A stretch of DNA of 64,000 nucleotides from Effrenium voratum (taxonomy: Eukaryota; Sar; Dinophyceae; Suessiales; Symbiodiniaceae): assembly GCA_963377175.1 (NCBI GenBank), contig CAUJNA010000447.1, positions 1,271,056-1,335,055 on the forward strand, written 5' to 3'. The number at the start of each line of letters is the position of its first letter. Positions within the stretch are counted from its first letter, which is position 1. The position numbers and the translations under genes were made by a program. The notes below the pieces were generated by a model, which saw only the letters and a list, made by a program, of their open reading frames with translations, searched no databases and was not told the DNA's origin. Below are positions 15,723-42,989 of the stretch, one piece after another.

Positions 15723-15909
15723 AATGCACCTCGCCCACATGCGGTGCACATGGGTTTTGCTTTTTCACGGCCCAGGTGTAGCACCTCACCCAGGCGGGCT
15801 AGAGCAGGGTCTCGTACTTCAGCATGTGCCGCTGCACCATGTACCTGCATTGCCCATGATGTGTCCCGCAGCCATTTCCTATTCAGTTCGGAAGTGGTTT
15901 CCCTCCATT

Positions 15910-22954: not shown

Positions 22955-23768
22955 TGGTACCATGCACAGGTATCTTCCTCGGCCCAGCAAGTCCGGCAAA
23001 ACCGTGGCGCTGATCAGCATGATTCTGGAGCAATACCGCGGAGTCCTATATCCATCAATATCGACGACAGCTGGGTCCCTGTCAAGAAGTACATCGAGGA
23101 GGACCTGGGGGTTAATACCGAGCGGGAACAGGCCTACTACGACGAGTGGGACGAGGCAGCGCTGCGGGGGATCATCCAGAGGCAGCGCAAGATCACCGAG
23201 ACATCCAAGAAGTTGGAGATGAAGAAACTCTACCAGGTGCTGATCATCCTGGACGACTACGCAGATAGCCCGCAGCTGCACAAGGCCCACGGTGCCCTGG
23301 ATACACTCTTCATCAGGGGCCGCCATACGCAGATCAGCACTTGGGTCAGCTCCCAGAAGCTGAGGCTCATCAGTGCGGCAGTGCAGCAGCAGGGCGCCGC
23401 GCATGGAGGCGGAGCGGCCCAAACACGGAGGTGGAACGCCCTATAAGCCACTGCCTGGCGGACAACTCCCTGCTGCGGGTGAACATGCAATTTCTCTGCT
23501 GCTGGAGGCTGCGCAACCAGCACGAGCTGGAGGCCGTCATCGAAGAGCTCAGCGCCCTGCTGCCGAAGGACAAGCTGCACAGGATCTACGAGCAGGCGAC
23601 CCGAGAGCCCTACAGCTTCCTCTTCGTCTACTACCTCAAGCCAAAGAATGAGATGTTCTACTTGCGCTTCGAAGAGCGTTTCGCTCTGGAGAAAGAAGCC
23701 GATGGGAGCGGCGCTCAGCTTCCTGGGCCAGAAGCTGTTCGCGCTATGCACCGAACCCTCAAGCTGTA
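22955..23768 (+). pseudogene. A32-like (FtsK/HerA) packaging ATPase of viral type
   Basis: Three consecutive frames together read as a DNA-packaging ATPase. The Walker A region is 'RPSKSGKTVALISM', with Arg in place of the first Gly. Then come 'SINIDDSWVPVKKYIEEDLG', 'YYDEWDEAALRGIIQRQRK', the Walker B 'YQVLIILDDYAD', the 'RGRHTQISTWVSSQKLR' segment with a sensor-like polar position, and 'YSFLFVYYL'. Frameshifts near 23,046 and 23,400 break it. Such ATPases belong to nucleocytoplasmic large DNA viruses, virophages and Polinton-like viruses. The last codons run into the terminal repeat of the giant LTR element at 23,742. I read it as an endogenous viral relic. Confidence 0.75.
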
Positions 23769-24056
23769 ATACCAACCACGTAGAAAGGTGTATACGGACG
23801 ATGCCGTTATAGCCGAACCCGTGTAAACGTTGTAAGGGAGAAGGAATGATAGTTACGACAGTGGTCCTGACAAATGCAGCGTAGGCGAAGTGTTTTCCGC
23901 TCTCAATGCCGATCACGTATGTATGCAGTCACACATCAGATCTTGAACGTCAATTGTGTCTTGAGCCAAATTGCGATCAATGGAACTTGGGAAGCAATCA
24001 ATAAGGACCTCAGAATAGCTACCCAATTTCGGCACGGGGCCTAGAGGGTTTTAACA
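23742..24056 (-). repeat. 3' LTR of the giant element
   Basis: Aligned by eye with 41,467-41,808 it is the same sequence, but shorter by about 27 bases through many one- to three-base gaps plus substitutions. The element-sense strand starts TGTTAAAACCC. The match ends in ...GGTGCATAGCG inside the end of the ATPase frame. The many gaps suggest age or error-prone copying. Confidence 0.85.
23960..23974 (-). promoter_or_regulatory. Spliced-leader-like sequence in 3' LTR
   Basis: On the element-sense strand this reads CGCAATTTGGCTCAAG, a more diverged form of the site at 41,709-41,725. The dinoflagellate spliced leader ends in CCATTTTGGCTCAAG. Confidence 0.45.
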
Positions 24057-24685: not shown

Positions 24686-26600
24686 TCACGAAGCATACCT
24701 GTCCCCAATGGACAGCCTATGGGTACGTCGGCGGAACTCCTCGTCCAAGTTCTTCTGGGTTTCTCGTGCCCGGACACACTTCTTGTTGTAGTCCTCTGGC
24801 AACCAGTGCCCTTTCCGAAGGCACCAATCCAGCAGGGGTGTGTCGCATTTGTTCGGGTCGATGGCCGAGATGATGGCGCTCACGTTGACCGTGTAACCAT
24901 TCTTGCCAAGGGTTAGGCCATCCCTCACGAATGATATATACTTACAGTTGAAAGCTAGTGCAAAACATCTGAAAATAATATCACCCACCGGGTGCACTCG
25001 GTCCTTGACCAGGAGCTTCATTTCTTCCTTGGTGACATCGAGGATTCTCGCTGCAATCCACAGCTTGTAGATTGTGTAAAGTCCCTCGCATTTGCACACC
25101 ATCATACGAATATATTCGTCACGCTCCTCAACCGATCGGAAGGCTCTTGTCCGAACATTCTCCGATTGAGAAAGCTTCGTTATTGTTGATGGCAAAAGTA
25201 TACCTTCCTGATCATGCTCGGTGATGTTGGGGTACCTCTTGAAGTCATTGTGATAAGGGCAGCCCGGCCTCCCTTCGAGTCCGGCATTCATCGTTCTCTC
25301 CTCACCACCTTCAAACATCCCCCGCATCTTGGACAGCTGGAGTGCGATAAATCCTGCCATGTACTGAGCCTCACGCGGCTCGTCAAGGCAGATCGCCATC
25401 CGTTGGGAACTTATAATGTCCCGTGACGCCAGATCGGTGTCGCGGTAATGCCAACCGCTGTCTTCTTCTTCTGACGCGTAGCCGGATGTATATCCTTGCG
25501 TGTCCATGTCGTCATCATCTCCCGGAACTTCCTCCGCTTCGTCTTCATCCTCCTGTGCTGCCGCATCGTGGTTAGCTTCTTCCTGTGCACGCCTGGCATC
25601 TCCAGAGACGTTGGGGTTTTGGTTGTCCTCCTCGTCATCGGATTTGATGTGAATGTAGTATCTTCCGATGGAGATCAGTTGTGCCTCGCACTCCAGGCAT
25701 AAGCAGACGCAGGTGGGGATCGCGGTCGCACATGATGGACATATCCGGCACCTCAGTCCTTCCCATGTCTCATCATTCAGGATGACGACTTTGCTGACTT
25801 CGTCCCGGACCTCGTTGACCTGTGCGTTGAACTCTTCCATCTTGTTGTTTCGATAGAGTTCGCAAGCACGATTAACCATGTCAACGATGTAGTGCAGATT
25901 ATCGGCACCTGTCTCAGTCTCCGGCATCCTCTCGCTGATCTTTGCGACGTTCTGGAGGAACATCGCAGCCGACTCTTGGGAAGAGTTGACAAAGCCAGGG
26001 CAGATCTCGTTCTCCACACACTTCGAGTACGCCCTCTTGATGTCAGCGTACTCCAGGCGCTTCCCTCCGTTGCTTTTGCCAATCCAAATGGACTTGACCT
26101 CATAGAACGGGATCACGTCAAAGACCATGAAAGTCCCATTAGCCGCGACTCCAGCCCCATACCGCGCGAGGGTTGCACTGGGAATATAGATGATCGCAAT
26201 CGGATCCCCTCTCCTCACGTTCCGTAGCGTCGTCTTCGTCGCCACGTTCATCTCATCCCATGGAGCAAACGCCCCGAAGTGCAGTGCTAGCCTGTTGCCG
26301 CCATCGATTCCGCCGGGGACTAACCCACAGCGTACGATGCTTGGAAGGTTTTCCACATACGTCACATGGAATGCTCCTCCGAGAGAATCACCCATTCTTG
26401 CGGAATACCTATTCGCCAGTGCGGATGAGCTCATGAATCCAAAATCACTGTGACCGGTTGTGACTCGGATGCACCAAGGTCTGTACCATCCATCGCATCT
26501 GTTGAACACCTGTCGATGTCGTCCCGATCCACGCCAGCTTCGGTCATTTCCTCCCTGGCTGCCCTCGTGTCGTTCGGGTTCATGATGCTCGGAAACCTTG
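24686..26600 (-). CDS. Accessory protein, C-terminal part with Tpt1/KptA-like catalytic lobe
   Basis: This frame continues the ORF at 30,198-26,431 after a -1 shift between about 26,600 and 26,480. It contains 'IRVTTGHSDFGF' (compare the IRAxQGHS signature of Tpt1/KptA), 'FHVTYVENLPSIVRCGLVPGG' split as 'HVTYVENLPSI' and 'CGLVPGG', then 'RLALHFGAFAPWD', 'DPIAIIYIPSATL' and 'FMVFDVIPFYEVKSIW'. These follow the order of the NAD-binding lobe of RNA 2'-phosphotransferase, which moves the splice-junction 2'-phosphate of tRNA to NAD+. After it come a Cys-rich ribbon ('CRICPSCATAIPTCVC'), an acidic stretch near 25,450-25,650, and about 250 unassigned residues. The frame is open for 653 codons. Activity is unproven. 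Confidence 0.7.
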
Positions 26601-29600
26601 CTGCCAAAACCTGGAATCTCGATTTTCTGCTTCCGGATTCCTGCCACTTGATCACCTCCATGATGCCCATGTATCGTTTCGCTCTCGTGGTGTATGGTGG
26701 GATTATGTCGTTGTTCCGGTCGTCAATGACAGCATCAATGTCGACCCATCCACCCTCGTCGCACCTGAAAGCACTTCCTCGGCAATTGCCGATCTTGTGT
26801 CGAAGGACTCTGCATAGGTCGTGAGATAGCTGTTTTGCTTGGTCCCTTGTAGTAAATACCGAGCGATCATCACCAATCCTGCATAGTGGAGCACCGTCGA
26901 AAGGAGCAATGCAGAAGTTGACACTCTTGCCAAGTTGCATCACGTCCTCTTGCTCAAGGATTGCACCTTTGGGAAAGTATTTGGGGTCAACGATGGACGC
27001 ATACGCCCATGGCAAGTGCACATCACTCACATCGCCATACTTCGGGATGTAGCACGGGATGGTGTCGCATCCCATCTCAAGCGTCTTTTTGAATGTCCTG
27101 CTGTCCCCGCACGGGTTGTAGGTGAGGTCGACGCCACCACATTGTAGCTCTCCTCCCTCAGCCGTGTCAGCCATCTCCACCAAATTAATAGAGTAGCTGT
27201 ACATCTCAATTGTTTCTTTCCCTGCTTGTCCCCCTTTCTTTCTTTCCTTGGACGTTGATGAGGACGGTTCCTCCGTATCCCCCATGTCTTCATCAGATGA
27301 AACAGGGTCACTGCTGAGTAGCTCACGGAGCACCTTCATCGCCTTCTCATTTCCAGCAGCCTCCTCAATGTCCTTGCAGTCGCCGTGGGCCAGGTTCGCG
27401 CACTTCTTACAGATCCCCATATCTCCCATGCACTTCTCCATTGACTCCAGGAATCCTAGTGCCGCTCTCCGCCCGTCGATCACTCGCTGCTTCTTGTCTT
27501 CCTTCTCAGTATTGGTTTGAGAACTTCGACTCGGGTCTGGTGCTTGACCACGACCCTCATCTTCGCCCTCCGTGGCCTTTCTCTTGGAACCTTGTGCAGA
27601 GGGCTCGGTGATCAGGGATCGTGGATGTCTGGGCTTGACCTTGTTCATGATGTCAAGCACCTCCTTCGTGGGCACGCCGAGCTGTGCGGACGGTTTGTTC
27701 CGCTTTCTGTTCTGGCCCGTCGTGTGGGTCACGTTCCCAGCGAGGTGTCGCACTATTGACTGCTCGAACTCCCTCTTGATCTTCCATGCATCCTTCCACA
27801 GTGGCAGTTCGTGCTGGAAGTACGACATCACCTCAAAGAATCCCAACACCATCTCGACGACGTCTCCCAAGGATTCCTCGTTCGTGGTTTGTCCCAGGAG
27901 TTCATACATCGTTCCTTGGACACTCTTGATCCATGACGAATATGCCACATTGCCAAGATCCTTGCCTATCAAGAAGATGGACATCCTCTCCTCGACTCCC
28001 TCGGAGTTCTTGCACACGATCACATCCCGGGATGCGCACAATTGCTTCCCGTGACCGTTGTTGTAGAACTGCGCTGCTTGATCCACAGTCATGCTCACGA
28101 ATCCCACGTGAGAAAGCTCCTTCTTCAGCCTTGAATACGCGAGCTCCCGTATGATCGTGATCATGGCCTGGATATTGTTGACGTCCACCATGAGGTTTTG
28201 AAGGTCGGGGATTGCCACCACGCATTCCGCGAAGAGGCGCGGGTACATTTTCTTCCCCTCGATAGACATTGCAATACCGTTCGTGTCCGCGTTCCAGTTC
28301 GCGCAACAGTTCACGCAAGAAGAGGGATTGTACTTCGAATTCGGTCCGAGCACCTTCGACTTGCTCATCTGCATCTCTTTATCGCAAAGTTCGCAGATAA
28401 ACTTGCTGAGCTCCGTGACCGTATACCATCGAAGACGTTGATCACCGACATCGGCTTTCCCAAAAGCATCCTGCTCGCCGTGTCCTTCATCTTGCTGCTC
28501 TTGTTTCCTCTTCGACTGTGCAGTGAAGGTCGGCTTGTACTCGAATTTCACCTTCGATTCCTCCATGTTCTTCGGGATGTTGAATCGAAGGTCGGGCTCG
28601 TTTATGCACGTCCCCTCCAGCTCACACACAAACGCGTTGCTTGGTGCGACCGCATCGATGGATTTCTCAATCAGCAGTCGCTTCAGGAGGAAGTGTTGCA
28701 AGTTCGAGCTCCCAGGGATCTTGTAGTTCTTTCCTGTGAGCGCATGGACCACGCGCCACAGGCGATCGTTCTCGGTCACCAGCGCGCCTGCCGCCTTGCA
28801 GATCTCGCTAACCTTGTTGGCGATCGTCCCCAAGTCCCCTCTTCCACCATGGAAAGCAACATCGCGATTCACGCACACCACGACCAGGCCCTTGCATGTG
28901 TTGACGAGGTCAGATATCGCCTTCTGCAGGTAGTCGATGATGGGGTTGGCGGTCACCTGCCATCCGCATCCTCTCATGCACACCCAATCATATAGCGACA
29001 TCCAGATGTGCACCGACATTGGTGAGTCATCCATGTCTCGCCTCCGCCGTTCAGCGATGAGCTTATCCAGCTTCTGCAATCGGGAGATGATATTCAACGT
29101 GTCGTTGGGTGAGGAGACTTGCTCACTCGACCCATAGTATGATCTCTCCTCGATGTTTGTCCATCCCTGTTCGTTGACCATCATCTGGAAGGTCTTCGTG
29201 CTCCCTTTCGAGTTGACGGCCCTCAGGGGCCAATCCAGGACCAAGAAGCTCTTCTTGTGGATCATCATGTCGCGAATCGTCGCCTCGCCAATGGGGCTCC
29301 TCTTCTGCCTATTGATAATCCGGTTCAACTGTCCAGGTGCGTTGTCCGGGTTCTTCTCCGCCTGAATCAACGCGTTGATGGCTTTGGCGCCCGGAAGGCG
29401 TCCAGTAATTAAGCATCCTGTTTGGGCACACAAGAAGGCATACAGCTGTAGCCATGCCGCGTTCCCTTTCCCAACATAGGAAAGAATGATCTTCTCCGCG
29501 CTGGTCTTCTCCTCGAAGTGCAATAGCGAAGAGGTCAGGCATCTCAGCATACACTCCCAATATGTTGCGTTCTTGCCTTCTGCAAGACACGGCCCAAATA

Positions 29601-30198
29601 CAGTTTGTATGATTGGGTACCCCGTATTGTTGTCTATGTTGAATTTCACATTGACAGTCGCTCCGCCCAAAGTGGTACCCCCTTCGAATGAAGTGTAGGT
29701 ATCATGTCCAGCAGTTGGGTTGATAATTACCCATCTGTCGTCGTCACCGCCAGAGTTCATTCGGAAAATGGAGTCGATGATCTCGTTGTCGATCTTGACA
29801 GCATCGCTGGCTTGCGACCCCCCACTTGGAGCTCCCGGCTGGGGGACTGACCCACCAGCGGTTTGACTCCTTTGCCCGGAGCTTGATGCCGACTTCTGCT
29901 GTCGCTCCGTCTTCCGTGGCGGCTCCGTCTTCGATGAGCCCATCACCCACCATGTCGGCTCTTCCCCAACCACGAAATCCTCGGGGTACTTCTCCAGTTC
30001 CCTCTCGATTTCATGAATCGTGCAGTATTTGTTCTGGAAGAATTCGATCATGACGTCCTTCTCGGCCTTCTTCTCGATCTCCTTCATCCAGCTTACCCAC
30101 TTGCGCCGATCTTGGTTCTCAGCGGCCCTGTCAGCCGCATGCGGTGCCAAACTGATGGAGTTGATGTTCATCGCGGGCAGCCTCGACTGATAGATCAT
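26431..30198 (-). CDS. Large accessory ORF ending in Tpt1/KptA N-lobe
   Basis: An intact 1,255-codon frame downstream of Pol. The first 1,100 residues or so match nothing I recognise. They include a Ser/Gln/Pro-rich linker (near 29,830-29,950), a block around 'WQVTANPIIDYLQKAI' and 'VVVCVNRDVAFHGGRGD', a possible Zn site ('CELCDKE' with 'SSCVNCCANW'), and 'CKKCANLAHGDC'. The last part, near 26,850-26,600, has 'LSHDLCRVLRHK' and 'DEGGWVDIDAVIDD', then 'SRFQVLAARF'. This is the LxxxLRH and GWVxVDxLL pattern of the Tpt1/KptA winged-helix N-lobe, whose Arg is catalytic in the family. The catalytic lobe continues in the next frame. It probably starts at the ATG at 30,198. No role is known for such a protein in a retrotransposon. 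Confidence 0.7.
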   Translation of the reverse strand: MIYQSRLPAMNINSISLAPHAADRAAENQDRRKWVSWMKEIEKKAEKDVMIEFFQNKYCTIHEIERELEKYPEDFVVGEEPTWWVMGSSKTEPPRKTERQQKSASSSGQRSQTAGGSVPQPGAPSGGSQASDAVKIDNEIIDSIFRMNSGGDDDRWVIINPTAGHDTYTSFEGGTTLGGATVNVKFNIDNNTGYPIIQTVFGPCLAEGKNATYWECMLRCLTSSLLHFEEKTSAEKIILSYVGKGNAAWLQLYAFLCAQTGCLITGRLPGAKAINALIQAEKNPDNAPGQLNRIINRQKRSPIGEATIRDMMIHKKSFLVLDWPLRAVNSKGSTKTFQMMVNEQGWTNIEERSYYGSSEQVSSPNDTLNIISRLQKLDKLIAERRRRDMDDSPMSVHIWMSLYDWVCMRGCGWQVTANPIIDYLQKAISDLVNTCKGLVVVCVNRDVAFHGGRGDLGTIANKVSEICKAAGALVTENDRLWRVVHALTGKNYKIPGSSNLQHFLLKRLLIEKSIDAVAPSNAFVCELEGTCINEPDLRFNIPKNMEESKVKFEYKPTFTAQSKRKQEQQDEGHGEQDAFGKADVGDQRLRWYTVTELSKFICELCDKEMQMSKSKVLGPNSKYNPSSCVNCCANWNADTNGIAMSIEGKKMYPRLFAECVVAIPDLQNLMVDVNNIQAMITIIRELAYSRLKKELSHVGFVSMTVDQAAQFYNNGHGKQLCASRDVIVCKNSEGVEERMSIFLIGKDLGNVAYSSWIKSVQGTMYELLGQTTNEESLGDVVEMVLGFFEVMSYFQHELPLWKDAWKIKREFEQSIVRHLAGNVTHTTGQNRKRNKPSAQLGVPTKEVLDIMNKVKPRHPRSLITEPSAQGSKRKATEGEDEGRGQAPDPSRSSQTNTEKEDKKQRVIDGRRAALGFLESMEKCMGDMGICKKCANLAHGDCKDIEEAAGNEKAMKVLRELLSSDPVSSDEDMGDTEEPSSSTSKERKKGGQAGKETIEMYSYSINLVEMADTAEGGELQCGGVDLTYNPCGDSRTFKKTLEMGCDTIPCYIPKYGDVSDVHLPWAYASIVDPKYFPKGAILEQEDVMQLGKSVNFCIAPFDGAPLCRIGDDRSVFTTRDQAKQLSHDLCRVLRHKIGNCRGSAFRCDEGGWVDIDAVIDDRNNDIIPPYTTRAKRYMGIMEVIKWQESGSRKSRFQVLAARFPSIMNPNDTRAAREEMTEAGVDRDDIDRCSTDAMDGTDLGASESQPVTVILDS

Positions 30199-30449
30199 AT
30201 CGATGCACCATAGGAAATCCCTGGAGTACTCGATCTCCCGGTAGAGATCGTTCAGCTCCCTTTTGTCTGGACGGAAATAAGCTGTATACGACTGATCTTT
30301 GGAGTCCTTCTCACCGAGTAATGTGCAATCTCCTCATGATGAACGAGACGCACATGAGCGAATTGACCGCCCCGATGCACGCGTCAGAGATGTCACTGGG
30401 GGTTGACCCACAGATCATCCAGCGCAATAGGTTGTTCTGGCTGGCATTC
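30199..30449. other. Spacer between accessory ORFs
   Basis: About 250 bases between the stop at 30,450 and the next ATG at 30,198. All minus-strand frames contain stops and no motif was seen. It includes GGGGTTGACCCA, a near match to the 12-base motif described elsewhere. Confidence 0.5.
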
Positions 30450-31304
30450 TCATCCCTCCTCAGTGTTCATTGACGCATGCAGCTCATTCTGGTAGACCAA
30501 CCCAAGGTCCCAATTCTTCTGGTAGTCGTCCTTGGAACCACGACCGTAGAAGTCGATCTTGGGAGCCTTTATCACGCTCAACGTGAACACTTTCCCCCAG
30601 TTTCGATCTCTGTACTTTGCAATTCTCCGATCGTGCCTCTCAAACTCTGCAGTCGTCTGGAACTCCTCGGAGCTCCTCCACCTTCTCGATGACGATGCCC
30701 TAGATGACTCGTCGCTGATGAATTCTTTGTACACCTCCCCAACCGGGGTGTTCTGGTGGAATGCAGCTTTGAACGACCGTTCATCGTTGTCCTCGGCCAC
30801 GCCTAGTGCGAGATCCCAGATGTTCGCGATTGATCTCAACATATCCGCCCCTTCCATGCAGTACTTGGTTACGTTGAGCAACTCGGGGTTCTTCGCCAGC
30901 ATCGTTGCCTCACCGCAAAGTTGGTTCAGCGCCGACACGATCTTCTTTCCCTTGCTGCAGAATTCCCTCCATCCAAGCATACATTCGTCGGCAGAAAGCT
31001 GTCCGAAAACTTTGCTGATGAACTCTAAGGCAACCCTCATAGACTGCCCTTCACCTTTCATCATCCCGCGGCCCTTGGCAGAGTAGTACGCAGAGTATGC
31101 ATAAATAGCGGGGACGCCTATGTCCTCGATCCACTTCACGCACATACCCAGGTCGCTGCTCATCTCCATCCTCTTGGGTATCCTCTTGCCTTCCTCGATG
31201 GCGTTTTTCACCAAATTTCCCAAGAAGATTGCTGCTTGCCTAGATTTCCCAACAGGCACGCAGAAGAACTCATTTGCATTGACGACATTCGGATTGGCAG
31301 TCAT
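30450..31304 (-). CDS. Unassigned accessory protein (about 284 residues)
   Basis: An ORF that I start at the ATG at 31,304 ('MTANPNVVNANEFFCVPVG'). It is in frame with the preceding Pol ORF only because no stop separates them; about 105 low-complexity residues lie between. The protein looks mostly helical, with hydrophobic stretches ('AIYAYSAYYSAKG', 'ANIWDLALGVAED'), and ends in a basic region. Just upstream a hydrophobic run, 'ICSCLFWIFLGLENII', could be a membrane segment if translation is continuous. It has no recognised family. Its position after Pol is where some copia elements carry extra genes, but I see no envelope signature. Confidence 0.55.
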   Translation of the reverse strand: MTANPNVVNANEFFCVPVGKSRQAAIFLGNLVKNAIEEGKRIPKRMEMSSDLGMCVKWIEDIGVPAIYAYSAYYSAKGRGMMKGEGQSMRVALEFISKVFGQLSADECMLGWREFCSKGKKIVSALNQLCGEATMLAKNPELLNVTKYCMEGADMLRSIANIWDLALGVAEDNDERSFKAAFHQNTPVGEVYKEFISDESSRASSSRRWRSSEEFQTTAEFERHDRRIAKYRDRNWGKVFTLSVIKAPKIDFYGRGSKDDYQKNWDLGLVYQNELHASMNTEEG

Positions 31305-34300
31305 CTTGATGATATTCTCCAGACCCAGAAAAATCCAAAATAAGCAGCTGCAAATGAAGCCACGGAATTGTCCCAATGCGATCCCAGCTTCAGATTGAGG
31401 TGACGAACTCGTCCAGCTCCTTCTTGAAGCTTGGGGTTCGGGACTGACCCAGCTCCCCGTATGCACCAGAGGTTCGGGACTGGCCCAGCACCTCGGTTGT
31501 GCAGTTGGGGTGGTGCAGATTTCGCTCGCAGTAGCTTGGTGCTTCCGCGATCTCCTTCGCGTAATGCAAGCAAGAGCGAGTTTCAACGGTGCCGGTTTGA
31601 GGCACCTTGCTCGAGCACGAAAACGGCGAAGGATCACACCCACAATTATAGACGTGTACAACTGGGTTTCTTTGGTTTCACGACCAGCACAAGGTCCATG
31701 CTCATGGTTTCCATTGCATTTCTTAGACAACGAGCCACCAAGTTCAAAGTTCCATGATACAACTCTCCATGGTTTCTTGATTGGCATGGGTTTCTTTGCA
31801 TATCTTTGTTTCAAGCCATAGCGACACCCATCAAACTCGTGACTAGTCCCATCATGCACGACCTCATGCAGTCTCTCATCTTTCCAATAATCACAACTTC
31901 CAGGCAACTCAAACAAAATCGCAGCTCGTTTTGTCATGGCATGCCGTTTAATTTCAACGAACCGTTCAAATAATCTCCAAAATTCTCTTTGTTTGGCCTC
32001 GATTTTCTCTGCGGTGTCAATGCCGCGAGTCTTGTTGAGGCGTGCCCATGATGATCCCCCCGTGCAAGGCCCGGCGAAGAACAACAAATCGGAAGGTTTG
32101 GTAAGCACATGTCTGGCGATTCTCCCCCCGTACTCGCTCAGTAAGTCATCAACCAGAGTTATGGTGACAACCTGCGGCCCGTCATGGCGGGCAAGAGCAG
32201 TGAACCAGTTACGTGGTTCGGAACATGCCATCAGCACGATGGGCCGAGCCAAGTCAACACTGTAAAGAGTGACGACTGTGCGAGTTCTCATACCAGGAAG
32301 CGAGACATGAACAGGAGCGCGAAGCACACCACCGTCATGTTTGACCATCGCGAGTTCAATACCCGGCGCTAACTGTGGCTTGTGCTTCACCGCAATGCGA
32401 TACGGAACAAAACAACGACCAGGGACAAGCTGCTCGTGATTGATATGCAGACAACGCATGAGCAATTTCAATCGGAGCAACGTTTCCAAAGCAAGGTCGT
32501 TAACGCACTTCAACTCTATGCGCTCGTTCGACAGTTCTTCAACAAATGCGGCCAGCACGGACTGCATGTCAACATCCCCGGACCCGACGTGAATTGGTCG
32601 TGGTCGTGGAGACCGTTCCCGCGCCGGTGCAGCGACCGGTACGGGATGAAACTGCCAAACTGCGCGTTCAACCCAACCATCAATTCGCACACATTGTAGC
32701 CCCGGGTCAACTCTATCCTCAACTTTGAGCCATGACCCATTCTTCAGAAACCAAGTGGAACGAAGCCACTTGCTCCCAAACGGTGTCATAACCGCGAGTG
32801 GAGGTTTCACACGCATCAATCTGGGTCCCTTGGCAACAACAACCGGATCATGTCCTTCATGCTCATGCAATCCCTCTTTAGATGTTAATCCAGACCACCA
32901 TAGGTCCGGGGGCATGATCGGTATGTGTGTGTACGGAAATGTTGGAACTCCGTCAACTGTCCCCGAAGCGGTCTGCATGGTCCCCTTTATGGGATCACAC
33001 GTGGGTGTGAGCGCCTTGAGGGTATCCGGGTCAGACAGCAAGCTCGGGTCAAGTAGACCAATCTGCAAACATGCATGTTTCCATTTGCGCCCATCATTGA
33101 ACGCCTTGGTGTAAATATCGGCCGCCATCCTGTCGGTGACCTCATACGCCAAGTACATGTAATCACGTGTGAACATCTCATGCATCCACGAAATGCTAAC
33201 ACCATGGCTTCTCTCAAGGTGGCGCATCGTGGGGTTCCTCCCCGATCGCACGACACCGATCATAGCCTTATTATCGTCATAGAACACAAAGTTCGGTGAC
33301 TTCTTGAGAATCCGCTCTACCAGCTTGAGAGCGGGCATACCCATCGATCTCATGGCAACGTCGGCCGCAACAATCTCGGCCTCGGGAGTGGAGTGACTCA
33401 CACAACCGGTGGAACGCAGCGAGTCAATGCATCCCGCAAAGTCAGCGTCCGCATACAAGGCCAAGTGCACATCGTCCATAGGGTCTCCAACCCAACCGAC
33501 CATGCGCCAATGTTTGGTATGATGCACATAGCACATCAAGTGATGCAAACCCCGATCATCGGAGTCAGTCCACCTATGCACGTTCCGTGCTAGGCGATTC
33601 ACTTGCCGCAACAAATCGAAGCGAGCAATCCGCGCACCGTACAGCAACTTCATCAGTACGCTAGCGGCATGCGGAGCAAGGTGTCCACGCACGGGCTCCT
33701 TCATGGCCAACTCAGGAGTCCCTCCCCGTTGGTCCGGCACTGTGGCAGAACCGTCGGTGGGCACAAGATTGTTACACCAATTGCACACGACTGACGGCCC
33801 CTCTCTGGCAGGCTTCCGTGAGACGTGATTCCTTGTTTCTTCATGCAACTCAGGGGTGACAACCTTATTCAACTTCACGTCGCCCGCCACTTCAAGATAG
33901 CGGTCGACACAGGAACGTAGGAACTGTTCCATGTCATAGGTCACCGTTGTTACTCGGTGTCCGTTCCCGAGAGTGACGTTTCCCTTGCTTTGATTGCAAC
34001 CAAGGTACATGTCAAGTCCAGTCTCGGGCTCAATCTTCAAACGTGTACGCAACATGCTCCACCCTTGGGCAAGGTTCTTCTGCGGCCCTGCCATTTTGAA
34101 GTCGTCGACATACACAACCAGAACAAGCTGGAGCTTTTCGTGAATGTACACTGAAGGCCATTCTTCGCCGATGGGCTCAAAACCAACGGCACGCACCGAC
34201 TCATCGCAGTGCTGCTCCCAAAATGTTCCCGCATCTGGGTGTCCGTACAGCGCCTTCCTCAACGGGACGACTGGTCTTCTGTACTTATCCCATTTGCATT

Positions 34301-34805
34301 CACTTGGCACGGCCTCCGGTGGCAATTCAATCCAACACGGCGTGCCTCTCAAGGTGGCCTGTATATACGCCTGAACAGCGTCGGCCATCTGCACATCCCA
34401 GCCATCATGACAACCCAGAAAATCCGCCCAACGCGAGGCTTCAAATGAAGCAGGGGAGTTCCCCAAATCTTGAAACATCGCAGCCTCAAAGCTTTGGTTC
34501 TTCACTTGGTTCCCCAGCAACACGCCTCTACCCTTGAACTTCCTCTTAGGATCACCAACAGGCAACTGTGAGTGCTTTTCAACGCAAATGCCATGTGCGC
34601 GAGCCATGTGTATTTCCTCCCCCTTCGCTTTTGCTTCTCTGGCTACAGCGTCATATTCACGCACCGCGCCAAGATCGAAGACCCCCTGGTCGATTAATCC
34701 CGACCACTCTTTCTTCATTGATGCCAATGCATCAGGGTTGGTCAACATCTCTTTCCGGCCTACCGGCCTGGATACTAAAGCGTCGAAGAATCGTACAACT
34801 TTCAC
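31305..34805 (-). CDS. Copia-type RT, RNase H and methyltransferase-like domain
   Basis: This is the C-terminal part of Pol, and its frame is intact. RT covers residues about 20-290: 'KFKGRGVLLGNQVKNQ', the first catalytic Asp in 'QMADAVQAYIQATL', 'PLRKALYGHPDAGTFWEQHC' and the active site 'LVVYVDDFKMAG' near residue 232. RNase H covers about 445-570: 'ALYADADFAGC', 'STPEAEIVAADVAM', 'FYDDNKAMIG' and 'AADIYTKAF'. At about 855-1,063 is an added domain: 'FFAGPCTGGSSWARLN', 'ILFELPGSCDYWK', 'KPWRVVSWN' and a Cys/His cluster 'CNGNHEHGPC'. Its PC and ELP motifs fall in the order of C5-methyltransferase motifs IV and VI. RT and RNase H are secure. The methyltransferase reading is tentative. Confidence 0.85.
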
Positions 34806-35657
34806 AGCTTTCTCTCTGTGCTGTATTCGCAGAAGTCACGGCAAGCTCAGAAGTCCCGCACGGCATCGATGGGTACTTCTTGGCTTCACCGTCTTCGCCT
34901 ATCGCAGGCATTGCGAGTGGCACTTTTCCAGAAACTATCTCAGCAGACTCCTCCCATTCATACCAGGTGAGGTCCGTCGATTCGTCGACCGATGGATCCG
35001 TCCCGATGCTGTCTCAGCTTCGTCTTTATGACTCTCCATGACTGATGCAACCGCCTTCGTCCAGTTTGGAGTCGACTTTGATCGCTCCTCAGACTTGAAC
35101 TTCCAGGCATAAATTACCACCAGACACTCAAATTCTTTCTCAAGCTGAACGTTTCGTCTCATGACGTCTTGGGACTGTTTGGAATCCATGAGTACAACCA
35201 CCCCGTCGACAGGATTAACAACAATCCTGACCCATTCAAGCTCAGCCAAGTGCTTCCCATCCATTGGGTTCTTGATCTTTGATATGTTCTTCCGCAATCC
35301 CCAATTGTACTGCCATTCTAATCCACCCCAGCGGTTCCGAAGCATCGCTCGAATTCTCTTACCACCGGGCATCTGTAATGTCCGTGCCTCTGCCGGCGCG
35401 GAAATATCAGACTCTTTACTCTTGGGATCTTCCTCTTTCCTATTGCCACCGCCCTTCACTTCGGCCTTCTCTTCCTTGGTGTAATATTTACTCATCATCT
35501 TCCATTCTTCAGGAGTGAACTCTGGAGGTCTCGATGTCTTCATTAGCCTGAATCCATCCTTCCCGACAGGATACGGTCTTCCGGCCTTGTCGATCTTAAC
35601 CTCCTTGCCATCGTCGTTGACGTACGTGATACCATCCCCGGGTAGCCCAACTGTCAC
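34806..35657 (-). pseudogene. Copia Pol connector between integrase and RT
   Basis: This links the integrase to the RT in the same reading frame (down to 34,935). It is charged, with 'GITYVNDDGKEVKID' and 'FTPEEWKMMSKYYTKEEK', and no known domain. Around 34,990 the sense moves to another frame ('TDLTWYEWEESAEIVSGK', then 'AIGEDGEAKKYPSMPCGT'), and it returns to the Pol frame by 34,805. Two compensating frameshifts and a TAG at 34,935 therefore interrupt it. Confidence 0.6.
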
Positions 35658-35858: not shown

Positions 35859-36995
35859 CAATTCAGGCTCGTAGTCCTCATCCTCGATCAGGCGGTCACG
35901 TGCATCCAGACCGATTGCATCGATAGACATCTCTATTCCTTCCAAAGTCTCGTTGGCAACCTTGTACTTCTGTTGTATTGGGAATGTCAGAGGAGATCTC
36001 AGGATCATCCTCTCCGTCTGATGTGGCATTCTCAACCGAGGCGGAACCTTTGCCTTCTTGATGTTCAGCTCTGCACCCGCAAATGCAGTAAGTGCCCAAG
36101 CACGTTACTTGTTTGCCCAATGCATACCGGTGCTCAACACATATCCAGCAAATATACCAGTTTCCCCTCTCGGCTCGAACTTCTCCCTCTTTCCCCCTCG
36201 TGCTTCGCTCGGCTTGAAGTCCACTAGCGCACCAAAAGGTATCTTCTCGCCCTTGAACTCCTCGCCATGCAGCCTCATCCATGCACTCGATCCGTTCAAC
36301 TCTTCGATGTTCATGAGATGGCACAGAGTGGTGATGGCCTGCACCCAATAACACGTGGGTAGACCGGCATGTACTAGACAAGCCGAAGTCTGGTCAATGA
36401 TGAATTGATTTGTCCTTTCAGCAAGGGAATTGTTCTGCGGCCGTCCAGGCAGCGATAGGTCGTGGTTCAGCTTCAACTCCACGCACGCATTGATCAGTTC
36501 CGGGCCGTCATCTGAATATACCTGCTTGATTTTCCTCCTCCCGCAGAAGTGCTTGATAGCCCTGACGACTGAGTCAGTGTCTCTTCTCGCGGGGGGATAA
36601 GCCATGATAATTCCGGTATATATGTCCCGGATGATGAGCGCATACCTGCCTTCCACTTCATGATCTCCTGATGCCGTCACAAAGTCGAACGTCACCAGGT
36701 CACCGAACGTCTTCACTTCTCATTTGAATGCTCCCGTTCGTGATCTGAAGTGTCTCATCTTTGCCTTGACGCATGATTCGCAGAAGGGATTTCGGTATCT
36801 GTGTGTAAGCAAATGAGCTATGGAGTTGGCGTCCTTCTTGAGGACTCCCCCTTTCCTCTTTATTGATGATCCTTCGTACACGTCTACTTCGATTCCGGCA
36901 TCTGGATCATCTTCGTCAGCCTCTTCCTCGTGAGCTTCGGCATCACCATGTCGATGCGGGACTGACCCAACATCTACAGGTATTTCCTCAGCCAC
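35859..36995 (-). pseudogene. Copia integrase
   Basis: The N-terminal HHCC zinc finger is seen as 'HLLTHRYRNPFCESCVKAKM' near 36,800. The DDE core follows: 'FGDLVTFDFVTASGDHEVEG' with the first Asp, 'VYSDDGPELINA' with the second, and 'GRPQNNSLAERTNQF' with the Glu. The spacing fits DD35E. The frame carries in-frame stops TGA at 36,720-36,722 between finger and core, and TAA at 36,105-36,107 after the core. A further TAG at 35,856-35,858 ends a readable tail ('KKAKVPPRLRMPHQTERMIL'). All stop types occur, so codon reassignment does not explain them. The enzyme is dead as written. Confidence 0.8.
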
Positions 36996-37109: not shown

Positions 37110-37340
37110 CTAATCGTCACCTCCCTGATCTGCCTCGTCGTTCGTTACCATCGCCAATACTTCCGAAAAGTGCTCCTTGAGGTCGTCTATCGTAGGGCGA
37201 TGCCTGTTACTCCGAAGTTTACCATCACTCACTAGGTACGGGATGTCGTCCTTTACCTGCAAGTGCACGAATCCCTGCTTTGGCGTAACCATGAAAGGTA
37301 GTTTACCAGGCATCCAGTGAAATGCATAACCCATCTTCAT
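37110..37340 (-). pseudogene. End of copia protease region / start of integrase segment
   Basis: The frame 'MKMGYAFHWMPGKLPFMVT' directly continues the Gag-protease ORF, which ends '...TPTVLSVGGDA'. A one-base deletion at about 37,340 separates them: with one more base the text would read on without a stop. The segment ends with an in-frame TAG at 37,110-37,112, after which the same frame runs on to the integrase finger. Confidence 0.65.
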
Positions 37341-40300
37341 GCATCTCCTCCCACTGACAATACCGTGGGTGTCTCATCCAATACATGCGGCTCGACAGTC
37401 TCGTCCAACTCGTCCACGACTATCTTGGCAACATCAGATGTGGAAGTGGAACCATTCGCGGTCTGGAACACGATCTCGTCGTCATCTTTCACGATGTCGA
37501 CACCCAGGCTCTTCGCCTTGGCTCTTCCAATGAGATCATGACCACATCCGGGGTCCATCAACCATTTCACCCGTTTGCTGATGCACGTTGACATGGCGAA
37601 AACGTTCTTCGGCATACCATGCTGCTTCTTCCAGTCGACAGCCGATTCCTTGATCTCGTCCTTGTTCCGATCATACTCGAACATTATGCTGCTCTCCTTG
37701 GTCACCGGGAAGTAGTGCTTCTTATTTACATCATCCACTACTTCTCTCAGTATCTTCGCACGTATCAATGATCGTTGGACTTGATAGGCTGACAATTCAC
37801 GATGATCACTGCTTTTGAACTTCTTCTCGTCGACGTACACGTACTGATAAGGCTCATTCTCATTGTCCTCATAACCGTACCATTCCCCTTTTTGTTCCCA
37901 TTGCCTTCTCTCGTCTTCGAGGTAGGTGATCTCCCCATTCTCGTCGACGTCGAGCACTTCCTTGAACCACACCATTTTCTCGGGGATCTCGGACTCGCCA
38001 GACCATCTCGATGATTCGCTCATTGCGTCGTCATCGTGCTCGTGGTAGACAGTCTCGGCTTCGTCCGGTTCGACATGATCAACGTCCTTCTTGAAGCTTA
38101 CCTTCCCCGCAGGAGCCGATTGCTTCAGGACTATCGCGGGCATTGCGATGGCCCTCCTCGCAATGGCAGGCGCTGCGGCTTTGGCGGCAGCCTTCGACTT
38201 GGCTTGCGCCTTGTCATTTGACGTTGCTGGAGCTGAATTGTTCTTGATGAGCTCATGCCTGTACTTACAAGCGCTTCCCCTATCGCACTTCCCCTTCTGA
38301 AACGCGACGCATGCTCCATCATCCCTCTTTGGTGACGATGATCTGGACTTGGATTTGCCCTTTCCTTTCCCCTTGGACATGCTCTCCAACTTATGCTCCG
38401 TCTTCTTGCTGTGGGAAAAAGTGCATTCATTCCCTTTCACGCACCCCTTCGCCGATTTGAAGTGGTACCAGCAGGGGTTATTCTTGCTTCCGCCCGGACT
38501 CTTGCCTCTGTCGCTGGCACCGTCGGACTTGCCGTTCTTGCCAGCGTGGCCCTTTGCCTTGGCTTTTGGGAGAACAGGAGCGGCATCAGGTCCACCGGGT
38601 TTCCCCTTTCTGCCCTTGCCACCCTGGTTCTCCTGTTTGCCAGTTGCTGGAGCCGCATCCTTCCCGCCTGACTTCATCATCGACTTGACCGATTTCTCCT
38701 TCATGTCGAGCATCAGGTCTTCCCGATCTGCCTTGGTCTGATAGTCGATCAACGCCAATAAGAATTCATACGTCTTCTGAGGATGCTTGTCCGGTAGTCT
38801 ATGGTAGGCATTGAGGCCGAACTCCATCTTCTTGCTCCCTTTGATCTTCCTGTAAAGGATGTATCTGAGAGCCAGCTTACTGGGTCTGTCCTCGCTCCTC
38901 ATCTTCAGCAGCAAATCATACCATTTGTTCCTGAACATGACCAAGTTCTTGTCGCCAGGAAAGTCAAGGTTGAATAGAGGCTCGATGTGGTAGACAAGAT
39001 CCGTTCTATCGGAAGTTCTGAATGATTGCATAACTAATGCCACCAACTCTCGTCCCTTCACGATCACCCCTTGTTGATGACGTAGTTCAGAGTGTCGTGT
39101 AGCATCGAGGTATACGTCCTTGGCTTCGTCAGGTGCTTGATGTCGTAGTTCAGAGTGTCGTGTAGCATCGAGGTATACGTCCTTGGCTTCGTCAGGGGCT
39201 TGTTTCAGCATGTTCTGCATGCCCATGGCCATCTTAATATCTATCGTAGCAAATCTGTCGCCACCTGAATCGCTAAGCAAATCCAGGTCTGGGTTCAACC
39301 CAAGAGCCTGCCCCAGCCATTTCGTCCATGCGTCGGTATCTGGATCTGCACATGCGCTCAGAACATTCATCAGCAGTTGCATCTTCCAGGTGTCAAGTTG
39401 ATGGATCTTTGGCCAGGCCGGAATAGATACTCTCTCGGCCTCTTTCCCCGAGATTCTCGGTCGATCATTCTTGATCTCTCGGTTATCTCTCGATCTCCTT
39501 CGTCTCCTCCGTGTCCGATCGTCTTCTTCCTCTTCTTCTTCCTCGTCGTCCTCATCTCCTTCGTCGTCGTCATCCTCATCCTCATCATCGGGTGGATCAT
39601 CCGGAGGTCCTCCTCCGCCACCAGCGAGGCTCAACTGACGTCGACCCGCTCCCTGCCCATTTCCATTGGGCGGGAATCCACCGTAATCCAATGGGGGCGT
39701 AGTACCGTTGTTTCCCCCCCCATCACCACCACCAGTCGTAGTAGTGGATTGTGGGACATGCCCAACAACCCCTTGCATCTGGGATAGGTGTACATCGATC
39801 ATTGGATCACCGAAAGACGGAAAGAGGATCGAACCTGGCATCAGCGACGAAATAGGGATTTGATTTGAAGACGATGACGGGACTGACCCAGCCACCTTCT
39901 TGTCTATCCTATTTGAATTAGCCTGGGTTCCTCCCTCAGCGCGTTTCACTACTGCTCGTTCACGATGTCCATCTTTGCTGCTGGAGGCTTCCTGTGTCTC
40001 CAGCTTCTGGTGTGCACGTAGTTCCTCGTTGTCAGCATCGAGTTGGCGTACAAAACTCTCTTCTTGCTTGAGCGTCGCCTCTCTTTCCTTCAGTTGTCTC
40101 TGAAGCTCATGCATCTCCTCGAGGTACTCATCGTACATTCCCTTAGCTGTCAATCTCCAGTAATCAGCCTCCTTCGACTTCTCGTCCATCGTGCACCGTT
40201 CCTCTTGTTTCTCTTCTTTGACCTGGGCTAACTCCAAGATCGCATCCTGACGATGACCACCTTCGACAGCAATCATCTGGTCCTTCAACGACACGTCGGA

Positions 40301-41335
40301 CTCATACTGTTTGACGATCTCTTCTTTTTCGCGAAGCAAGCAATCTGCTCTCTTCGATTCCTGTTCCGCAAATACTGTAACGTCATTCAGCCTCGCCATC
40401 AGCTGTTCCCTGGAGTCCTCCAAAGTGTACGTCTCGGGGCGCTTGACGAGTGCATGCTCCAACTGTGATTTCAGACTTTGGACCATCTCCTCCTCGTTGA
40501 ACTTCTCGATAGATGTAGAAGATTCTATGCCTCTGATCTGTTGCTGATAAACTGATATCTGTTGTGAAGCCTCACGGTGTATCTGATTTGCACGTATAGC
40601 TGATTCCTGCGCGGCCGACTTCTCGCTTGCCATGTAGGATTTCATCAATGCAATCTCCCGCTTCTGCTCCATGATAGTTCCTTCAGCTTGTCTCATCTGT
40701 TGCATTATAATATTCGACTCCATGTCTTTCTTCTCCCCGTACTGAAATGCGTTCATTTCCACCTTACGCATCTGTTGGGCTTCTTCCTCAAACTTGCGCC
40801 ATGCCTCAGCCATGTGGTGTTGGTGGTGACTCACTAGATGTCCCGACTGCTTGCTGGCAATCTCGCATCGTCTTTCCAGCTCCTGGATCCGGATGGTGCT
40901 TCCATAGTCTTCTTGGTTAAGATTCGCCATTGCTGCCGACATTTCATCAAGTGTCTTCTGATATTCCCCGATCTCCACCTCCATCTTATTCTTCTCTTTG
41001 ATCACGGCGCGAAAAACTGCACTGGTGGGTGATTTTGACCTCCCACCCTTCGATGTCGATCTCACGCCCTTCTGCGACGTCCGTGGTGTCGCAGGCGAAG
41101 ATGATGATCTTCTCGGGGGGGATTCTCTTTTCTTCGACTCCTGATGAACATCGATCTGCTTCCATGATCTTGTGGGAGTAGATATGTCGCTGAATAGCGC
41201 GGAACCTCCGCTCCCAGGTTCATCCTGTGAATCTGAAACCATATCCATCACCGCAGGAAGAGCCATCAATCCATTGGATCCCTCTGAGCTGCTGTTCCCA
41301 AAAGTTGCAGTACTTGGGCTCGCCGAAGACGCCAT
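37337..41335 (-). CDS. Copia Gag with coiled coil, CCCH fingers and protease
   Basis: An intact 1,332-codon frame from the ATG at 41,335. A Ser-rich N-terminus leads to a long coiled-coil-like region (about residues 110-440, rich in Glu, Gln and Lys heptads), unusual for a copia Gag. A Gly/Pro and acidic linker follows (near 39,500-39,720). The Gag core has 'VSIPAWPKIHQLDTWKMQ' and 'GDRFATIDIKMAMGMQNM'. Two CCCH fingers follow, C-X9-C-X5-C-X3-H ('CWYHFKSAKGCVKGNECTFS' then His) and C-X7-C-X5-C-X3-H. Near the C-terminus the protease reads 'VKWLMDPGCGHDLIG', where DPG replaces the usual D[ST]G. A 63-base in-frame duplication lies at 39,081-39,206. The unit probably encodes capsid, nucleocapsid and a questionable protease. 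Confidence 0.85.
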   Translation of the reverse strand: MASSASPSTATFGNSSSEGSNGLMALPAVMDMVSDSQDEPGSGGSALFSDISTPTRSWKQIDVHQESKKRESPPRRSSSSPATPRTSQKGVRSTSKGGRSKSPTSAVFRAVIKEKNKMEVEIGEYQKTLDEMSAAMANLNQEDYGSTIRIQELERRCEIASKQSGHLVSHHQHHMAEAWRKFEEEAQQMRKVEMNAFQYGEKKDMESNIIMQQMRQAEGTIMEQKREIALMKSYMASEKSAAQESAIRANQIHREASQQISVYQQQIRGIESSTSIEKFNEEEMVQSLKSQLEHALVKRPETYTLEDSREQLMARLNDVTVFAEQESKRADCLLREKEEIVKQYESDVSLKDQMIAVEGGHRQDAILELAQVKEEKQEERCTMDEKSKEADYWRLTAKGMYDEYLEEMHELQRQLKEREATLKQEESFVRQLDADNEELRAHQKLETQEASSSKDGHRERAVVKRAEGGTQANSNRIDKKVAGSVPSSSSNQIPISSLMPGSILFPSFGDPMIDVHLSQMQGVVGHVPQSTTTTGGGDGGGNNGTTPPLDYGGFPPNGNGQGAGRRQLSLAGGGGGPPDDPPDDEDEDDDDEGDEDDEEEEEEEDDRTRRRRRRSRDNREIKNDRPRISGKEAERVSIPAWPKIHQLDTWKMQLLMNVLSACADPDTDAWTKWLGQALGLNPDLDLLSDSGGDRFATIDIKMAMGMQNMLKQAPDEAKDVYLDATRHSELRHQAPDEAKDVYLDATRHSELRHQQGVIVKGRELVALVMQSFRTSDRTDLVYHIEPLFNLDFPGDKNLVMFRNKWYDLLLKMRSEDRPSKLALRYILYRKIKGSKKMEFGLNAYHRLPDKHPQKTYEFLLALIDYQTKADREDLMLDMKEKSVKSMMKSGGKDAAPATGKQENQGGKGRKGKPGGPDAAPVLPKAKAKGHAGKNGKSDGASDRGKSPGGSKNNPCWYHFKSAKGCVKGNECTFSHSKKTEHKLESMSKGKGKGKSKSRSSSPKRDDGACVAFQKGKCDRGSACKYRHELIKNNSAPATSNDKAQAKSKAAAKAAAPAIARRAIAMPAIVLKQSAPAGKVSFKKDVDHVEPDEAETVYHEHDDDAMSESSRWSGESEIPEKMVWFKEVLDVDENGEITYLEDERRQWEQKGEWYGYEDNENEPYQYVYVDEKKFKSSDHRELSAYQVQRSLIRAKILREVVDDVNKKHYFPVTKESSIMFEYDRNKDEIKESAVDWKKQHGMPKNVFAMSTCISKRVKWLMDPGCGHDLIGRAKAKSLGVDIVKDDDEIVFQTANGSTSTSDVAKIVVDELDETVEPHVLDETPTVLSVGGDA
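39081..39206 (-). repeat. 63-base in-frame tandem duplication inside gag
   Basis: Two consecutive 63-base copies (39,081-39,143 and 39,144-39,206) are almost identical and duplicate 21 residues of Gag ('QAPDEAKDVYLDATRHSEL' plus two). Near-identity shows that it is recent relative to the LTR divergence. Confidence 0.95.
39879..39890 (-). repeat. Recurrent 12-base motif TGGGTCAGTCCC (one of five)
   Basis: On the element-sense strand TGGGTCAGTCCC occurs exactly at 39,879-39,890, 36,958-36,969, 31,440-31,451, 29,843-29,854 and 24,652-24,663. A one-mismatch copy lies at 31,476-31,487. In three places it encodes Gly-Ser-Val-Pro, in one it is read in another frame (Trp-Val-Ser-Pro), and in one it lies beyond the last stop codon. 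The shared reading is therefore at the DNA or RNA level. Function is unknown. Confidence 0.9.
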
Positions 41336-41466
41336 TGTACTGTGTGTGTTATCGTTCCTTTATTGTCCCTGTACCCGCAATAAACCAGCTGTCTCCCAGT
41401 CCAGTGTAGAGCTTGTAGTTACGGCTGATAACCTGTCAAGAGACGGCAAGGTGACGTCCCGTGGGT

Positions 41467-41808
41467 CGCTATGCACCGAACCCTCAAGCTGTAATACCAA
41501 CCACGTAGAAAGGTGGTAAATACGGACGAATGCCGTTTATTAAAGCAGATACCCGTGTAAAACGTTTTTTAAGGGAGAAGGAATGATAGTTTACAACAGT
41601 ACTCCTGACAAATGCAGCCTCAAAGCGAAGTGTTTTCCCCCGCTCTCAATAATGCCGGCAATCACGTAAGTATTGCAGTCACACATCAGATCTTGAACCT
41701 CAATTGTGTCTTGAGCCAAATGGCGATCAATGGAACTTGGGAAGCAACACCAACAAGGACCTCAGAACAGCTACCCAATTTCGGCACGGGGCCTAGAGGG
41801 TTTTAACA
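41467..41808 (-). repeat. 5' LTR of the giant element
   Basis: The sense strand begins TGTTAAAACCC at 41,808 and matches the 3' LTR to ...GGTGCATAGCG at 41,467. The gag ATG is about 130 bases further on. I did not recognise a primer-binding site directly after it; a GTTATCAGC stretch about 40 bases on only loosely resembles the initiator-tRNA site used by many copia elements. The outer end cuts into the gag of DIRS-like copy 2. Confidence 0.85.
41709..41725 (-). promoter_or_regulatory. Spliced-leader-like sequence in 5' LTR
   Basis: The element-sense strand reads GATCGCCATTTGGCTCAAG. The dinoflagellate spliced leader ends in CCATTTTGGCTCAAG; this copy lacks one T and matches the rest. It lies in the sense direction, upstream of gag. 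It may be a relic of a trans-spliced transcript that was reverse transcribed, or a chance match. Confidence 0.5.
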
Positions 41809-42968: not shown

Positions 42969-42989
42969 GGCGGCGCATGAGCGTTGATT

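Follow-up and report, generated by a model that had tools for sequence, protein, structure and literature searches.

Does a retrotransposon of the dinoflagellate Effrenium voratum encode, within its own polyprotein, an enzyme of the Tpt1/KptA type, and what would such an enzyme do there? The question was raised by a stretch of 64,000 nucleotides (the window; assembly GCA_963377175.1, contig CAUJNA010000447.1, positions 1,271,056 to 1,335,055, forward strand), in which an earlier note, made from the letters alone, had described a giant copia-type element carrying a Tpt1/KptA-like RNA 2'-phosphotransferase, and had proposed a profile search, structure prediction, conservation of the catalytic Arg and His residues, a ratio of nonsynonymous to synonymous substitution rates (dN/dS) below 1 and a search of related elements as checks. 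Tpt1 removes the 2'-phosphate of RNA using nicotinamide adenine dinucleotide (NAD+), for which a catalytic tetrad is required, and is non-essential in E. coli and mouse (PMC6333775); archaeal KptA has been linked to a tRNA 2'-phosphate mark (PMC9095486). Sequence comparison indicates that the window holds one of many near-identical copies of a Ty1/copia element of about 18 kb, and that the far end of its pol region encodes a two-lobed Tpt1/KptA domain kept by selection.

The motifs of both lobes were found on the minus strand at the positions and in the order that the earlier note had given, distributed over two reading frames. Lobe 1 is marked by LSHDLCRVLRHKIG (26788-26829) and GGWVDIDAVI (26725-26757) in one frame, and lobe 2 by IRVTTGHS (26438-26476), AFHVTYVENLPSI (26336-26374), NRLALHFG (26267-26296) and GTFMVFDVIPFYE (26099-26137) in the other. 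Searches for relatives returned 56 proteins, a wider search 122 (120 of them listed) and a search with a divergent member as query 32; one relative, from Effrenium voratum, aligns with 55% of the query stretch at 94% identity. Sorted by best alignment, the 184 distinct proteins, many of them fragments, comprise the window's own family 1 (141 proteins) and two further domain families that are 31-47% identical, family 2 (11) and family 3 (32), so that the domain is present in many related copies as well as outside its own family. Family 2 occurs in the same genome; of 1757 candidates 135 were scored and gave at least 148 matches, P0110 being 98% identical at one place; matches to the family-2 query at about 42-44% identity, many of them in long open frames, look like members of family 1. 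Scans of viral contigs gave no relative.

Against the Pfam profile PF01885, which has a cut-off of 26 bits, lobe 1 of the window scored 16.0 bits within its whole open reading frame (ORF; E 0.013) and 19.6 bits when excised (E 0.001), and lobe 2 alone gave no match. The window's own pieces thus stay below the cut-off, but family-1 relatives with both lobes in one frame reached 29-34 bits in eight of nine proteins scanned (the ninth, P0022, gave no PF01885 match), and a chance match is therefore excluded. When nine members of families 2 and 3 were scanned, two exceeded the cut-off, six lay at 14.6-25.4 bits and one had no match. The catalytic tetrad Arg-His-Arg-Arg aligns with four bacterial KptA sequences, and its codons, together with those of GHS and HxT, are invariant in all 45 DNA copies compared. 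At the protein level the four tetrad residues are kept in family 1 at 64/65, 62/66, 57/61 and 63/65 covered sites; families 2 and 3 keep them wherever the site is covered. Between the first and the second catalytic Arg lie 112 residues, compared with 59 in Escherichia KptA; the resulting insertion of about 53 residues is close to the 45 or so claimed earlier. The predicted structure of the domain matched Tpt1/KptA in 19 of 19 Protein Data Bank (PDB) matches at E<=0.001; the alignment used for the prediction included the four bacterial KptA sequences. Among viral structures, an RNA 2'-phosphotransferase of a sawfly baculovirus gave the only match at this threshold.

With Tpt1, KptA and TRPT1 (PF01885), the domain accordingly shares the order of the two lobes, the tetrad, GHS, the His and Thr of the NAD+ motif and the predicted fold. 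It differs from them in the extra residues before the second Arg, in reading HVT for HGT, and in being fused to a retrotransposon polyprotein with a Cys-rich ribbon after it, whereas the matched solved Tpt1/KptA chains measure 176-206 residues. This ribbon (CRICPSC...CLEC; 25680-25750, minus strand) has similar stretches in sequences of all three families.

Membership of the domain in the element was read from copies in the 1.156-Gb Effrenium voratum assembly, where 65 of 3387 first-look candidates were scored for the window query and gave at least 66 matches, some of which may be assembly duplicates. Up to 10 kb around the domain was inspected in 20 other copies. The parts termed ORF2 head and ORF2 middle, both KptA lobes and the C-terminus follow one another in this order in all 20, the GPCTGGS domain (Table 1) is present in 18, and the reverse transcriptase (RT) is colinear with the domain in 17, the remaining three being a shorter stretch (L025) and two places where the match stops before the RT (L009, L010). 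In 3 of the 17 copies (L011, L012, L014) all of these parts lie within a single open frame, and open frames around the domain of 4312 and 5169 residues are among the matches listed. At the DNA level the copies match one of their number at 96-100% identity, except L059 at about 95%.

For the lobe region, 45 copies were compared with a one-frame copy as reference, and 20 further listed copies were left out. No insertion or deletion was seen in 15 copies (counting L059, which aligned in two overlapping pieces), the other 30 carry deletions at varied places, and a stop in the reference frame falls within the covered part of three (L037, L042, L059); as the copies were selected by a query in the window's broken frame, broken copies are over-represented and these fractions are no population estimate. 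The shift that separates the lobes, as noted earlier, does exist in the window, but it is no design feature: it occurs in none of the 44 other copies and is private to this one, through either mutation or assembly error. A programmed frameshift between the lobes was rejected because the break sites vary among copies and 15 of the 45 have none. Relative to the single reference, all 34 events are deletions and none is an insertion, a pattern that may reflect deletion bias of the genome, the choice of query or the sequencing, so that assembly error is possible.

Variants found in at least two copies carry the evidence for selection. In the KptA domain (45 copies, fewer where stretches were short), 33 of these are synonymous and 8 nonsynonymous, which corresponds to a dN/dS of 0.09 (binomial p = 1.6e-12, with variants treated as independent). 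Shared synonymous and nonsynonymous variants number 11 and 1 in the RT (dN/dS 0.03), 7 and 1 in the GPCTGGS domain (0.05), 26 and 11 in ORF2 middle (0.15), 30 and 16 in the C-terminus (0.19) and 16 and 9 in ORF2 head (0.20). KptA variants confined to a single copy comprise 39 synonymous and 35 nonsynonymous changes, one of the latter a stop (dN/dS 0.33). Judged on variants common to several copies, the KptA domain is under purifying selection. Of the checks proposed in the earlier note, structure prediction, conservation of the catalytic residues, dN/dS and the search of relatives all turned out in its favour, and the profile search did so for unbroken relatives only.

The element itself spans about 23.7-41.8 kb of the window on the minus strand, with about 18 kb between its long terminal repeats (LTRs; Table 1); the interval 24686-30198, which the earlier note had given, covers only its 3' part. 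Direct repeats at 23742-24056 and 41467-41808, identical in 302 of 342 aligned columns, bracket minus-strand ORFs arranged as in Ty1/copia, from a gag-like ORF with CCCH fingers and a protease-like end through an integrase-like piece and an RVT_2 RT to the 3' extension and the KptA lobes. The RVT_2 score above its cut-off, the integrase-like piece before the RT and the TG...CA ends of the LTRs support the copia-type classification, which holds. With Ty1/copia elements (Pseudoviridae) it also shares the purine tract; it differs from them in its length, in a 3' extension of about 2,200 residues that holds the Tpt1 domain, and in a primer site without the initial TGG that is complementary to the CCA end of a tRNA. 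Apart from the KptA lobe, the ORF holding the 3' extension (26431-30333) gave no Pfam match at E<=1 and no match among PDB sequences.

Table 1. Features of the Ty1/copia element, by position in the window
Feature	Position	Strand	Basis and remarks
5' LTR	41434..41808	-	TGTTAAAACC...TTGACA; repeat partner of 23742-24056; end placed via four other copies ending TTGACA
Putative primer-binding site GGTTATCAGCCGTAAC	41418..41433	-	Directly adjoins 5' LTR
Gag-like ORF with CCCH zinc fingers and protease-like end	37337..41359	-	Pfam zf_CCCH_4 1.6e-5, Asp_protease_2 0.0021; weak, all below cut-off
Integrase core piece	36108..36719	-	Pfam rve E 3.6e-4, 21.2 bits, below cut-off of 32.6
ORF with RT, RNase H region (by eye), GPCTGGS domain (31656-32255) and head of 3' extension	30450..34835	-	RVT_2 36.5 bits, cut-off 31.6; other copies colinear
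Long 3' extension, no fold recognised by sequence, ending in KptA lobe 1	26431..30333	-	ORF
Tpt1/KptA lobe 1 (RNA lobe) with catalytic Arg and His	26500..26870 (ends approximate)	-	As a separate piece 19.6 bits against PF01885; alignment of relatives with bacterial KptA
Tpt1/KptA lobe 2 (NAD+ lobe) with two catalytic Arg, HVT instead of HGT	26070..26500 (ends approximate)	-	Frame differs from lobe 1
ORF with lobe 2, Cys-rich ribbon (from 25750) and acidic C-terminal region	24686..26722	-	Open reading frame
3' LTR, without its last 33 bases	23742..24056	-	Preceded by purine tract AATGGGGGA

In four other copies the LTRs likewise start with TGTTAAAACC and end in TTGACA, and measure 349 bp in six of eight cases (356 and 389 bp in the others); a target-site duplication (GTTTA, 5 bp) was seen in one of these four copies and none in the window. 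In the two copies whose LTRs were comparable at equal length, the pair shows 1 and 3 differences over 316 positions, and those two insertions are therefore young. Over the stretch common to both, the window's 5' LTR (41467-41808) exceeds its 3' partner by 27 bases and shows many one-base length differences in short runs; the same stretch measures 316 bases in six of the eight LTRs of the other copies, and local assembly errors are therefore likely here. The 3' LTR flanks L060 and L062 (contigs C3217 and C1393) are identical in sequence, but the 5' flanks of these two copies differ; they would be copies duplicated or misjoined in the assembly. The GPCTGGS domain follows the RNase H region on the minus strand and precedes the 3' extension. 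The 18 copies that have it match the window there at 97-100% identity, and it is under strong selection, but it gave no Pfam match; it faintly resembles a methyltransferase motif. A different repeated protein family flanks the element, with ORFs at 15622-17157 (plus strand) and 41925-42989 (minus strand) that both contain an FDC..DFAFAFP segment.

Apart from one difference in one copy, the window and the four other copies agree in all 45 letters 3' of the 5' LTR. Drosophila copia is primed by a half tRNA, its primer site being complementary to the anticodon side of the tRNA, an unusual mode of priming reportedly described by Kikuchi in 1986. The complement of GGTTATCAGCCGTAAC folds like an anticodon arm once its stem is completed by hand, and our guess is that it may correspond to the 5' side and loop of such an arm, as in Drosophila copia. 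The 13-mer CGGCTGATAACCG occurs at 73 places in the genome, compared with two for the reversed control, and ARAGORN found no tRNA in eight stretches covering nine of these 73 exact places. Seven of the nine places read share one unrelated repeat (L069, L070 and L072-L075 among the loci). A gapped primer pattern gave 60 places against 38 for its control, none of them tRNA-like by eye among the sequences inspected, and a pattern for the initiator-methionine tRNA gave one place against none for its control.

What, then, is the domain? That a Tpt1-fold domain belongs to the element appears almost certain. The opposing explanation, in which a host gene or nested element merely sits between the LTRs of this copy, or the match is fortuitous, could draw on the window, where the domain is broken between its lobes and the RT lies in another frame; it is contradicted by the colinear copies (unless these are assembly duplicates), by those that read RT and domain in one frame and by the low dN/dS on shared variants. 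We consider it very improbable, and passenger or chance match was rejected on the colinear layout across the fetched copies. It is also probable that the domain is catalytically competent, and, with a little more reserve, we hold it likely that the element both encodes a maintained Tpt1/KptA domain and thereby an active NAD+-dependent RNA-phosphate enzyme. Several observations weigh against this view. The NCBIfam Tpt1 models scored only 12.6-15.4 bits against cut-offs of 231-239 for the three proteins examined, because of which the domain is regarded as a divergent Tpt1/KptA relative and no equivalog of bacterial KptA, and profile searches against PDB sequences gave no Tpt1. The four bacterial KptAs in the alignment may have biased the predicted structure toward the Tpt1 fold, and a previous model built on 24 family-1 sequences, with bacterial KptA left out, failed, with a predicted local distance difference test (pLDDT) score of 29. 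In all three families Val replaces the glycine of HGT in each aligned element row covering it, with His and Thr kept, and in family 3 the histidine that closes RxxxH, behind the last Arg, has given way to Phe, Tyr or Leu at all 19 covered sites. Two of the one-frame copies, L011 and L014, have identical 20 bases past the 3' LTR and may therefore be one insertion present twice in the assembly. No RNA-repair partner (2H esterase, ligase or macro domain) was recognised in the ORFs scanned, and the genome pattern searches found no tRNA gene that contains the primer-site complement exactly.

The change to HVT and the very low NCBIfam scores could be taken to mean that catalysis has been lost and that the domain serves as an RNA-binding module in the particle, in keeping with the description of Tpt1 lobe 1 as a winged-helix RNA lobe (PMC6333775). 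Against this, 45 of 45 copies retain the four catalytic residues as well as the His and Thr that contact NAD+, and these residues are conserved across families that are only 31-47% identical. We hold this explanation to be quite improbable. An active domain might also act differently, by ADP-ribosylating 5'- or other terminal phosphates of element RNA or cDNA as a protective cap or a counter to host defence, with no removal of 2'-phosphate. Human TRPT1 and a Streptomyces KptA do ADP-ribosylate 5'-phosphate RNA, and TRPT1 requires the same tetrad (PMC6582358), which is intact in the element; yet the ORFs scanned showed no recognisable hydrolase or defence domain associated with it, and the sequence alone does not separate this activity from 2'-phosphate removal. 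On balance we regard it as rather unlikely. Under the reading we prefer, the domain would be an active NAD+-dependent enzyme on RNA phosphates, with the 2'-phosphate attacking NAD+ and leaving as ADP-ribose cyclic phosphate. Made together with the RT and present in the same particle, it would heal RNA ends or junctions blocked by phosphate, whether in the primer RNA or in genomic RNA that has been nicked, and thereby allow reverse transcription to start or go on; such an activity would convert cleaved RNA into a 3'-OH primer. Healing of RNA ends during reverse transcription is our best guess, put forward tentatively. With somewhat greater doubt we extend it to dinoflagellate LTR retrotransposons in general, in which a pol-encoded NAD+-dependent RNA 2'-phosphotransferase would possibly heal a cleaved primer, perhaps a tRNA half, or nicked genomic RNA. 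Healing of a tRNA-half primer in particular seems unlikely, and such a primer remains a guess because no matching tRNA gene was found.

KptA has been reported before within polyproteins, namely those of the Beihai picorna-like virus and the Botrylloides leachii nidovirus, for which a role in RNA processing was proposed, and also in DNA viruses such as Bodo saltans virus and sawfly baculoviruses (PMC9503650). The element shares with the former the embedding of KptA in a polyprotein; unlike here, the hosts there are RNA and DNA viruses, and the word "retrotransposon" does not occur in the main text of that report. In Symbiodinium, the retrotransposons SymbioLINE-Dnmt (a long interspersed nuclear element, LINE) and SymbioDIRS-Dnmt3 (of the DIRS type) carry DNA methyltransferases (PMC5890265), and are thus likewise dinoflagellate retrotransposons with an acquired enzyme domain in which key residues are kept; those are LINE and DIRS elements with a DNA methyltransferase, whereas a copia element here carries an RNA-phosphate enzyme. 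Our search of the open-licence literature, outside which most subscription papers lie, found no retrotransposon with KptA/Tpt1. A retrotransposon with an acquired enzyme is accordingly of a known kind, and within that literature this particular enzyme was not found described in a retrotransposon before.

The element would thus extend the range of catalytic domains that retrotransposons are known to have acquired by an enzyme acting on RNA phosphates, and the preservation of this enzyme suggests that the element performs RNA repair by itself. The domain may also hint at a dinoflagellate primer, or a host defence, that leaves phosphate-blocked RNA. As the purpose of Tpt1 is still largely open in organisms without a fungal-type tRNA ligase, a retrotransposon that keeps a Tpt1 domain under strong selection offers a setting in which its substrate could be found.

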